A stretch of 39,813 bases of DNA from Verrucomicrobiia bacterium (lineage in GTDB: Bacteria; Verrucomicrobiota; Verrucomicrobiia; Limisphaerales; UBA11358). This document shows positions 10,966 through 37,767 of the stretch, in pieces; within the stretch, counting starts at the first letter, position 1; each line of letters opens with the position of its first letter. The stretch lies in NCBI GenBank assembly GCA_025451535.1, contig JANWKE010000039.1:1-39813 (forward strand), written 5' to 3'. The position numbers and the translations under genes are program-made. The notes beneath the pieces were generated by a model, which did not search any database, was not told the DNA's origin, and saw only the letters and a program-made list of their open reading frames with translations.

Positions 10966-11152
10966 CTGCGGATGAACGCGGATTTAATAGCCGCAAAAAG
11001 GTGCAAAATCTTTTACAGGAGCAAACGGAGAAAACAGAGATTTGTCTCGAAACCGCGAAATACCCGAAATACGCGAAAACTGTCTTTCCAAATGGTAAAT
11101 CTTAAATCGTAAATTGAACGGGTCTCTGCGTTCTCTGCGGTGAAATAAATCA
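10966..11152 (+). repeat. Dispersed intergenic repeat, copy C (+ orientation), the fullest copy
   Basis: Shows all four modules in order: the opener GCGGATGAACGCGGATTTAA; the core GTGCAAAATCTTTTACAGG with gcaaacggagaaaacagag; the GTCTCGAAACCGCGAAATAC module with two near-tandem copies of gaaatac(g/c)c; and the GGTCTCTGCGTTCTCTGCGG end. The last module gives the empty-site reference for the micro-element insertion at 14609. Confidence 0.85.
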
Positions 11153-12654: not shown

Positions 12655-12850
12655 GCAGTCAAACATTTGACAGGAGCAAACAGAGGAAACAAAGGTTTGT
12701 CTCAAAACCGCGAAATACGCGAAATACGCGAAAATTGTTTTTTTAATCATCAATCGTAAATCATAAATCATAAATGAAGACGGCCTTCCCATTGGGAGTT
12801 GAATGCCTGCTCGCGACACAAGTCGGAGTTGAATGTTCACGATTAATCCT
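12655..12850 (+). repeat. Dispersed intergenic repeat, copy D (+ orientation)
   Basis: Core is degenerate (AAACATTTGACAGGAGCAAA), but the following GTCTCAAAACCGCGAAATAC module is intact, with two tandem gaaatacgc units. Then come the AATCGTAAATCATAAATCAT module and GAAGACGGCCTTCCCATTGG, as in copy K. Confidence 0.8.
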
Positions 12851-13018: not shown

Positions 13019-14080
13019 TTGGGTTTCTGCGTTTATGTTGCACCGTTGCGTGCCGCGAATAGAACCGGGGTCAGCCCGCTGCTGGATTGGTTGCTGCTGA
13101 AGCATCCGGATACACCCCGGAGCCGCGCCAAACAATGGATCGTCGCCGGGCGGGTCAGCGTCAACGGCGTCGTCATCCGCAAACCGCATCAGACCCTCCC
13201 GGAGCCGGGCGCTGCCCTGGTGTTGAGCGACCGGCAGGCCGCCACGCTCGACTGCGGTTCCGGCTGGCAGATTCATCCGCGCGTTTCCTTGCTGCACCTG
13301 GATTCCGCGCTCGGCATCGTCAACAAGGGAGCCGGCCTCATCTCCGTGCCGGCGGCGAATTGAGACCTCTCGGCGCTCAGCATCCTGGCCGATTTCCTGT
13401 CGGGAAAATTGAAGGCCCAGGAACGCAGCATCGCCGGAAAATCCCTGCCGACCGCCTATCGCCGGCTGCAACCGTTGCCGGTTCATCGCCTCGACCAATA
13501 TACCAGCGGCGTCTTTTGCATCGCCATGAATCCCACGTCCCGCCATCACCTGATCGAGCAATTGAAGGCCCACTCCATGCAGCGGGAGTATGTGGCGTTT
13601 GTGGCCGGGCGTCCCGGCAAGGCCACGGGCACCTGGCGGCAATGGCTGGAATTGAGCCGGGACGAACTCCGCCAACAGGTGCTTTCAGATTCGCAAGGCG
13701 CGGACCGCGGTCCGGAAGCCCGCGAGGCCATCACGCATTACGAGGTGCTCGCAGAGTACCCGCTCGCCGGCGGCAATGGCTTCGTCAGCAAATTGCGGCT
13801 CCGATTGGAGACCGGGCGGAAACATCAAATCCGCGTCCAGGCGGCCCATGCCGGATTACCTTTAATCGGTGATCGCACGTACAACCCGGCCTGTCGCCGA
13901 CCGGAGCGCATTCGACCGCCTTTGGATTTTCCGCGTCAAGCCTTGCATGCGGAGCTGCTGACGCTCGAACACCCGGACCAGCCCGGCCGGCGCCTGAGCT
14001 GGACCGCCGAATTTCCCCGGGACCTTCGCCAACTGGAATCGGCACTGCGTGCGATGGCAAAGCCCGGTGGCAAAGAATAA
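13019..14080 (+). pseudogene. RluA-family pseudouridine synthase with S4 domain, interrupted by an in-frame TGA
   Basis: One reading frame covers the whole protein but contains a TGA at 13361-13363. The first part (TTG at 13019) carries an S4 RNA-binding domain (SRAKQWIVAGRVSVNGVVIR) and the start of the catalytic fold (LGIVNKGAGLISVP). After the stop the same frame continues with LSALSILADFLSGK and the catalytic motif VHRLDQYTSGV, whose Asp is the nucleophile in this family, then LETGRKHQIRVQAAHAGLPL. The two halves together match the family's usual 320-350 residues. The rest is undamaged, so this is a very recent nonsense mutation, a sequencing error, or readthrough. An internal restart would lose the S4 domain. 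Upstream DNA is repeat, and no ATG start is available. Confidence 0.85.
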
Positions 14081-14280
14081 CCGCAGGTGAACGGGATTTG
14101 ATAACCGCAAAAAGTCGCAAAATCTTTTACAGGAGAAAACGGAGAAAACGAAGAAAAGACACCGATGATTTAACCGCAAAAGTCACAAAACTGTCCTCCC
14201 AAATCGTAAATCATCAATCACAAATGAGAACGGTTCTCTCCTCTGCGGTGAAATAAATCATCAATCGTAAATCATAAATG
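14081..14280 (+). repeat. Dispersed intergenic repeat, copy F (+ orientation)
   Basis: Starts at the stop codon of the pseudouridine synthase frame. It has the core AAGTCGCAAAATCTTTTACA, then gaaaacgaagaaaagacacc, two ATAAATCATCAATCGTAAAT-type segments and a CTCTGCGGTGAAATAAATCA end that is partly duplicated. Confidence 0.8.
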
Positions 14281-14579: not shown

Positions 14580-14720
14580 CCAACTCCCAGGGTGTCTCTG
14601 CGTTCCCTGTCCACCCTCCGCAGTACTGCTACGGAGGACGGGCGTTCTCTGCGGTGATATAATTCGTAAAACAAAGAAAGGAAACGATCATTTAACCACG
14701 AATTGCGCAAGGAACTCAAT
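14580..14720 (+). repeat. Dispersed intergenic repeat, copy G (+ orientation), interrupted by a palindromic micro-element
   Basis: Contains the module GGTGTCTCTGCGTTCCCT, then the palindromic insertion 14609-14643, then GTTCTCTGCGGTGATATAAT, an AAACAAAGAAAGGAAACGAT segment and TTAACCACGAATTGCGCAAG. Preceded at 14530-14590 by a pyrimidine-rich string. Confidence 0.75.
14609..14643. mobile_element. 35-bp palindromic micro-element with apparent target duplication
   Basis: The element reads GTCCACCCTCCGCAGTACTG and then CTACGGAGGACGGGC; CCTCCG and CGGAGG form the stem. It splits the repeat module that reads GCGTTCTCTGCGG when empty (11130-11150). It is bordered by GTTCCCT (14602-14608) and GTTCTCT (14644-14650), which looks like a 7-bp target duplication with one mismatch. 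It has no coding capacity, so it would have to be moved by a protein encoded elsewhere. Confidence 0.65.
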
Positions 14721-17477: not shown

Positions 17478-17700
17478 GCCGATTACGCAAATAAACGCTG
17501 ATTTAACAGCCGCCGGAAGGCGCAAAAACTTTTACAGGAGCAAACGGAGCAAAAAAAGCAGGAAACGACTCTTTAACCACAAAGAGCGCAAAGACCACAG
17601 AGACAAGAGAACTGGGTCACATTATTGATAAAAAACTTTGCGCTCTCTGCGTTCTCTGCGGTTGAATTAATCGTAAATCGTATATCGTAGTATCGTAAAT
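17478..17700 (+). repeat. Dispersed intergenic repeat, copy J (+ orientation), abutting topoisomerase IB
   Basis: Opener GCAAATAAACGCTGATTTAA, core GGCGCAAAAACTTTTACAGG, CACAAAGAGCGCAAAGACCA, GCGCTCTCTGCGTTCTCTGC, and finally three tandem variants of TCGTAAATCG, TATATCGTAG and TATCGTAAAT. The following coding frame of topoisomerase IB is open back to 17677, inside this repeat. Confidence 0.85.
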
Positions 17701-20067: not shown

Positions 20068-20310
20068 TCTGTTGGTACCTTTGACAGGTGTTTGGGTGAT
20101 CTACTCAACAACGGAAGCGCGTGGCCGCCCTGCCAACGTCAGCCCACCGGGCGCAGGATGCTCCACCCGGCCAACCCGGTCAACGCTCCGTTCCCGCCCG
20201 CCCTTCCTTGCCGCGTCGAAGTTTGTAACGAAGACGGGTACCCCTGTCCTCCATAGCCTCGGTGAAGGAGGATCCGTCCTCTGGCTTCCGACCTCCGGCT
20301 TCCGTCTGGT
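20068..20310. other. Intergenic region with a second palindromic micro-element
   Basis: No gene is seen. At 20247-20272, TCCTCC and GGAGGA pair across a 14-base loop (within CTGTCCTCCATAGCCTCGG onward). This resembles but is not the same as the micro-element at 14609. A pyrimidine-rich string follows to 20310, where the IS remnant begins. Confidence 0.5.
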
Positions 20311-33339: not shown

Positions 33340-33536
33340 GTCGTTTAACCGCAAAGAACCGCTCTCATTCACGACTTACGATTCGGGAGGACAGATTTTG
33401 TGACTTTTGTCCACCCTCCGCAGTACTGCTACGGAGGACGGGTGCCTTTTGGCGGCTGTTAAATCCGCGTTCATCTGTGATTACATGAGTGGCGTCTTTT
33501 ATTCGTTTCCTCCGATTGCTTCCGTGAAAATCTCAA
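33340..33536 (-). repeat. Dispersed intergenic repeat, copy L (- orientation)
   Basis: Read on the minus strand it matches copy F: TTCACGGAAGCAATCGGAGG, aaacgaataaaagacgccac, then the opener and core, interrupted by a micro-element, then CGTAAGTCGTGAATGAGAGC and GGTTCTTTGCGGTTAAACGA. It is the first minus-oriented copy after a 14-kb stretch without any. Confidence 0.8.
33409..33444. mobile_element. Palindromic micro-element nested in repeat copy L
   Basis: Reads GTCCACCCTCCGCAGTACTG and onward to GGACGGGTG, essentially the same as at 14609. It splits GACTTTTGTGCCTTTTTGCGG, the uninterrupted form seen at 35411-35434. Confidence 0.65.
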
Positions 33537-36794: not shown

Positions 36795-36880
36795 CAACGA
36801 AAGGAACGAAGTTGTTTATTTTCTATGAAAGCTTTTGCGCCTTTTGCGTTTTTTTGCGGCTGTCAGGTTAAATGATCGGT
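36795..36880 (-). repeat. Dispersed intergenic repeat, copy N (- orientation)
   Basis: On the minus strand it reads ACAGCCGCAAAAAAACGCAA, AAGGCGCAAAAGCTTTCATA and then a diverged A/G-rich segment (aacttcgttcctttcgttgg). It is a short, worn copy of the core module only. Confidence 0.7.
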
Positions 36881-37619: not shown

Positions 37620-37767
37620 GGTTTTCTTCGTTTCCTCCGTTTGCACCCGTAAAAGATTTTGCGATTTTTGTCCACCCTCCGTAGTACTGCTACGAAGGAC
37701 GGGTGCCTTTTTGCGGCCATCAAATCCGCGTTCCTCTGCGTTTGAATAATCGGTTTCTTTTCCCGTT
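37620..37767 (-). repeat. Dispersed intergenic repeat, copy O (- orientation)
   Basis: Minus-strand order: opener CAAACGCAGAGGAACGCGGA, TTTGATGGCCGCAAAAAGGC, micro-element 37670-37705, AAAATCGCAAAATCTTTTAC, then gggtgcaaacggaggaaacg. Core and opener match copies B and C closely. Confidence 0.85.
37670..37705. mobile_element. Palindromic micro-element nested in repeat copy O
   Basis: Reads GTCCACCCTCCGTAGTACTG, then CTACGAAGGACGGGTG: the same element as at 33409 with two changes that sit opposite each other in the stem region. It occupies exactly the same point of the repeat as the copy in L. Confidence 0.65.

Follow-up and report, generated by a model that had tools for sequence, protein, structure and literature searches.

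A short, precisely inserting hairpin element in Limisphaerales genomes

Y1 (HUH) single-strand transposases, the class proposed for REP/RAYT systems, are the best-known enzymes that take a folded single strand, recognise its arms and leave no duplication, and those of the IS200/IS605 type do not duplicate their target. Several families of short palindromes have been described. In the verrucomicrobium Opitutus terrae, GTAG REPs have been reported within genes, one of them uvrA; CGTC REPs, by the same account, have no dedicated transposase (Di Nocera et al., PMC3733652). The RPE of Rickettsia are short palindromes in and between genes, in frame in conserved proteins and without a known dedicated transposase (PMC3733652, PMC2229807), and their target duplication is listed as unknown (PMC2229807). 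MITEs measure about 100–200 bp and mostly carry TA ends and a target duplication; some of them keep several frames open and have fused with ORFs (PMC2229807).

The element described here was found in a window of 39,813 nt, the whole stretch of DNA analysed, from a Verrucomicrobiia bacterium (Table 1). A 35-bp palindrome had been predicted to split a repeat at 14600; the hairpin is present at that place, and its size is 33 nt. The minus-strand reading is CCCGTCCTCCGTAGCAGTACTGCGGAGGGTGGA, in which the arms CCCGTCCTCCG and CGGAGGGTGGA enclose the middle TAGCAGTACTG. The window contains three matches to an 18-mer of the element, against 0.06 expected by chance. In the predicted fold the single minus strand forms 13 base pairs, three of which are conserved G.T wobbles; consequently the CCCGT..GTGGA strand pairs fully and the opposite strand has three A.C mismatches. 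The predicted DNA fold was −9.1 kcal/mol for the element strand versus −6.7 kcal/mol for the opposite strand, the corresponding predicted RNA folds were −20.9 and −15.3, and none of 200 dinucleotide shuffles folded as well as the element (DNA parameters, z = −3.5). Moreover, nearly all stem changes across 44 copies of 33 nt retain standard or wobble pairing. A second hairpin family, TCCTCCATAGCCTCGGTGAAGGAGGA, lies at window positions 20246–20271, with a stem related to that of the element and different ends.

Table 1. Positions in the window of the element copies and of the filled and unfilled repeat modules.
Feature	Position	Strand	Remarks
Element, 33 nt	14610..14642	-	CCCGTCCTCCG TAGCAGTACTG CGGAGGGTGGA; ends from orthologous empty sites of other copies and from nested copies
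Left 9-nt unit of target tandem module (CGTTCCCTG)	14601..14609		1 of 9 bases unlike the right unit; earlier taken as half of a duplication
Right 9-nt unit of target module (CGTTCTCTG)	14643..14651		
Two-unit unfilled module	11122..11151		earlier taken as the empty site
Three-unit unfilled module (GCAGAGAACGCAGAGAGCGCAAAG)	17636..17659	-	better pre-insertion counterpart for the site at 14610
Three-unit unfilled A-rich module (GCAAAAAAACGCAAAAGGCGCAAAA)	36833..36857	-	counterpart for the copies at 33410 and 37671
Second copy, identical 33 nt	33410..33442	-	same phase of an A/T-rich 9-nt module
Third copy, 2 substitutions	37671..37703	-	CCTTCG and CTACGG, each keeping a standard or wobble pair

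Across genomes the element ranges from 30 to 42 nt, 33 being the commonest length, with fixed arms of 11 nt and a variable, invertible core. The core was reversed between unchanged arms in 12 of 81 copies (for example, TAGCAGAGCTACTG versus its reverse complement CAGTAGCTCTGCTA). As the search patterns behind this 81-copy set demanded the arms, arm conservation was read instead from a core-only search and from two orthologue alignments (rlmN and radical-SAM). Identical sequences were shared by 28 of the 44 copies of 33 nt, at distinct junctions, indicating recent activity of the element.

These features place the element in a new family of a known kind, the REP/RPE-like protein-coding palindromes, and the tags that define GTAG REPs and CGTC REPs rule it out of both groups; no published description of it was found in the literature. 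GTAG REPs carry an unpaired GTAG at the hairpin foot, whereas here GTAG lies in the stem beside the loop, positions 11–14 pairing with 20–23. Like the RAYT-moved GTAG REPs (REP/BIME, REPIN), which are non-autonomous hairpins of 20–40 nt and also intragenic in a verrucomicrobium, the element is a short hairpin; unlike them, it shows no regular inverted doublets and no RAYT association at the loci scanned, and it nests in itself. CGTC-tagged REPs have an unpaired terminal CGTC, a stem starting with AT and a CCA tail, whereas the element has its CGTC 2 nt inside and paired in the predicted fold, a C/G-rich stem and no CCA tail. With RPE, including the CGTC-tagged RPE-4 and RPE-6, it shares dispersal in and between genes and in-frame positions in conserved proteins; it differs in sequence and phylum, has 11-nt arms, and its junction is resolved (no duplication, R^CR). 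MITEs such as Correia/NEMIS, RUP and ERIC are likewise non-autonomous with terminal inverted repeats, but the element is about 33 nt long and G+C-rich and lacks the short target duplication of constant length that marks DDE-type MITEs.

All genomes compared were draft MAGs. The genome under study (4.4 Mb draft) holds about 10 copies, 8 of them by the strict arms-plus-gap pattern, which was positive in 7 of 49 congeners and gave 24 copies in G001, 18 in G006, 4 in G003 and one or two each in G009, G010 and G022; a core-only pattern gave higher counts. In a scan of 84,980 species genomes, every record with the exact 33-mer was titled Limisphaerales, Pedosphaera or Verrucomicrobia, apart from one titled Akkermansia muciniphila (CAMAWP01, two loci, L114 and L131), a label that is probably wrong. 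In a phylum-wide sample, which held one congener, the element was found in none of 386 other genomes. The hosts found are soil and freshwater Verrucomicrobia of the Limisphaerales/Pedosphaera type. Copies were also present on two viral contigs. A gene-free form of 100 nt, in which the two arms enclose 78 nt, occupies orthologous loci of two species (L224 and L225; G001:C19:6497-6596 and G003:C113:6536-6635).

Insertion was seen directly where orthologous alleles could be aligned. In rlmN, G006 and G001 carry exactly 39 extra nt (CCCGTC..GGTGGA), and the site is empty in 14 congeners, including the genome under study, with no extra base and a continuous reading frame; this copy is of the 40-nt core type, yet 39 nt long. 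In a B12-binding/radical-SAM gene, an insert of exactly 33 nt (CCCGT..GTGGA) sets G006 apart from G020, G031 and the genome under study, which carry none. Both inserts are in frame, and the orthologue alignments showed zero duplicated bases at either site. In addition, one copy lies within another at CG^GAGG in five loci (L025, L042, L058, L062 and L076), with the outer halves complete and no duplication. The same nested pair, its inner copy bearing the same rare GGATGGA end, occurs in different contexts in G003 (L025) and G001 (L062), which suggests that a 69-nt nested composite may have moved as a unit. For the 14610 copy itself the search for an orthologous empty allele gave none, and its pre-insertion state is therefore taken from the rule at the other sites. 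The original prediction of a very small non-coding element, inserting and mobilised in trans, thus agrees with 81 unique junctions and with the orthologous empty sites, and comparison of sequences supports well the mobility of a precisely inserting hairpin.

The element inserts between two bases, in either orientation, with a junction preference of R^CR: a purine stands at −1 in 76 of 81 junctions and at +2 in 74 of 81, and the first base after the insertion is C in 46 of 81. Its targets comprise intergenic 9-nt tandem modules, other hairpin repeats (GTAGCAGCCGA^CGTGAG..GGCTC, GGTGGCAGAGCG^CAGCGGCGACACCGC and GGCGGAGGGCCGCCG^CAGTCCAAGACG), copies of itself and protein genes. Insertions at hairpin tips (hairpin targets such as L026 and L039) were weakly enriched (3/43 vs. 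1.1%, p = 0.017). Among the favoured targets are dispersed, degenerate modular repeats whose units are either 9 nt long (CGCAGAGAN / CGCAAAAAN) or ATCGTAAATC-like; in the window they occupy intergenic regions, for example at 10980–11150, 12660–12780, 14090–14270, 17636 and 36833. Also in the window, a gene for an RluA-family pseudouridine synthase (S4, then PseudoU_synth_2; 13019–14080, plus strand) is split by an in-frame TGA at 13361–13363, reflecting either a pseudogene or a sequencing error.

At least 10 copies lie in frame within conserved proteins, each 30, 33, 36 or 39 nt long. They were located inside or beside Pfam domains of RlmN, MutS-like, PIG-L deacetylase, radical-SAM, DUF2157, UvrA, histidine kinase, RfbB/GDP_Man_Dehyd, MetH, NUDIX_4 and methyltransferase proteins, and the domain match spans the insert in MutS_V, DUF2157, GDP_Man_Dehyd, HATPase_c, NUDIX_4 and a methyltransferase. 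Of the six frames of the 33-mer, five are open. Each genic copy backed by a domain match has a length divisible by three, which is weak evidence by itself because the same holds for 68 of all 81 copies. The rlmN and DUF2157 inserts are common to G006 and G001, whose RlmN proteins are 85% identical; these inserts therefore persisted through the divergence of the two genomes, which implies that both proteins tolerate them. The element thus occurs both between genes and, in frame, inside them, as RPE-like protein-coding palindromes do. In the MAG palsa_1440, an HHASRITHHAS-like repeat is in frame in uvrA, a histidine kinase gene and rfbB (L123, L133 and L134), and the 33-nt element sits within that repeat.

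The search for a mobilising enzyme covered 37 PF01797 matches in four genomes (G000, the genome under study, with G001, G003 and G006), all of which contain PF01797 Y1 genes, and 30 loci were scanned. None of these 30 loci was bounded by the palindrome, so the proposed association with a RAYT flanked by the same repeat did not hold there; a single locus had an element copy about 1.5 kb away, and no copy lay within 1.5 kb of three strong Y1 loci in the genome under study. At one locus of that genome (L009, G000:C1), the Y1 transposase lies among other palindromes (CCGAAGGGGCGGCTGA and CCCGCAGTTTCAACTGCGGG), which are probably the REP-like family of this transposase itself. Unpaired half-elements mapped in the four genomes revealed no autonomous partner with the same ends: almost every one retrieved proved to be a random match, a decayed copy or a copy interrupted by N, and among the half-elements inspected no long version held a gene between two ends, the 100-nt form being the only long version. 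Likewise, no transposase gene stood out between neighbouring copies when the ORFs of L051, L061, L065, L072 and L129 were listed and a few were searched with profiles. The element has no coding capacity and the half-elements inspected included no gene-bearing long version, which points to mobilisation in trans.

The original prediction explained the copy at 14610 by an insertion with a target duplication, as a cut-and-paste enzyme leaving 7–9 bp would produce. Its borders are indeed present (GTTCCCT at 14602–14608 and GTTCTCT at 14644–14650) and form a 7-bp near-repeat, and the unsplit module exists at 11128–11150. However, that module has two 9-nt units versus three at the filled site, and with unequal unit numbers the two do not form an empty/filled pair. 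The target at 14600 is (CGCAGAGAN)n on the minus strand, and three units remain once the element is removed. The window has unfilled three-unit modules at 17636 and 36833, and others occur outside it in the same genome, so the extra GTTCCCT needs no duplication; as read from these arrays, GTTCCCT and GTTCTCT reflect the 9-nt periodicity of the target. Across this genome's six array copies the flanking "duplicates" are never identical, whereas the 33-nt element itself is identical in three, and in those three the "duplicates" show 4 mismatches in 27 positions versus 0 in 99 for the elements (p = 0.002), the opposite of what a recent duplication predicts. Furthermore, the left and right flanks of 60 copies were no more alike than shuffled flanks. 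Duplication was also tested on the 81 unique junctions with one representative per target family (43 families): no direct repeat exceeded 2 nt in 38 families, one family had a repeat of 4 nt (rlmN, fortuitous according to the orthologues) and four had repeats of 7–9 nt, against 0.13 expected. These exact repeats speak for duplication, but all four families are tandem-repeat targets (for example, CGTGATG^CGTGATGCGTGATG); taken individually, each might still include one. Together with the absent duplication at both orthologous empty-allele sites and in the nested insertions, these results reject target duplication for non-array sites and leave the cut-and-paste model very improbable. In the flanks of other copies, duplication was absent outside tandem arrays, and matching empty sites were present at rlmN and radical-SAM. 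The rlmN and radical-SAM alignments refute the idea that the palindrome belonged to the repeat modules from the outset and was never inserted. All six array copies of this genome do share one phase of the 9-nt module, as that idea would predict, but the same element with the same ends recurs in a wide range of unrelated surroundings, among them conserved genes whose orthologues lack it, and we give an ancestral origin practically no credence.

We consider it probable that the element is a non-autonomous mobile hairpin with fixed arms, inserted precisely and without duplication, and moved as a folded single strand by an enzyme acting in trans. Under this model the element would fold and move as a single strand, an enzyme supplied in trans would recognise the two arms, and at 14610–14642 one copy would have entered a three-unit (CGCAGAGAN) module. 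Movement as a folded strand is suggested because the CCCGT..GTGGA strand pairs fully and its complement does not, although selection acting on an RNA hairpin, instead of on single-strand DNA, would predict the same asymmetry. The best candidate class would be a Y1/HUH single-strand transposase: of the traits sought for an IS200/IS605-type element, absence of duplication, a preferred junction and strand asymmetry were observed, but no enzyme could be linked to the hairpin at the loci scanned. Because Y1 transposases of the IS200/IS605 type leave their target unduplicated, the absent duplication suits a Y1 mechanism better than its claimed presence did. We rate a Y1-like route at somewhat better than even. 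Its serious rival, less probable in our view, is movement of the hairpin by another DNA recombinase, by host single-strand annealing or fork template switching, or by an RNA-templated route; no Y1 gene was bounded by the element at the loci scanned, the core-flip isomers and the preference for tandem arrays fit hairpin misreplication, and a dedicated transposase is likewise missing for CGTC-tagged REPs, Rickettsia RPE-4/6 among them (PMC3733652). Against such routes, the fixed ends, the preferred junction and the unrelated, non-homologous sites suggest a dedicated enzyme that recognises the ends. More tentatively, the hairpin moved in trans may be a transposon of about 33 nt that needs its two 11-nt arms alone, moves as a folded strand through an enzyme outside the known RAYT type, inserts at R^CR without duplication, and tolerates core flipping or replacement and nesting; by keeping several frames open, it could add 10–13 residues to essential proteins.

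Orthologous empty sites and self-nested copies reveal the exact ends of the element, its preferred junction and the lack of duplication, and a caution follows from the arrays: in tandem-repeat targets, the array period can pass for a "target duplication". With copies so nearly identical, movement may be recent enough to be caught in progress. The inserts in RlmN, UvrA, MutS-like, MetH and RfbB proteins constitute a natural set of tolerated insertions of 10–13 residues. The case bears on how transposase-less palindromes such as RPE and CGTC REPs spread and on their target-site behaviour, which had been listed as unknown. If it proves to be a hairpin transposon outside the RAYT type, it would offer a tractable model for the spread of such palindromes.
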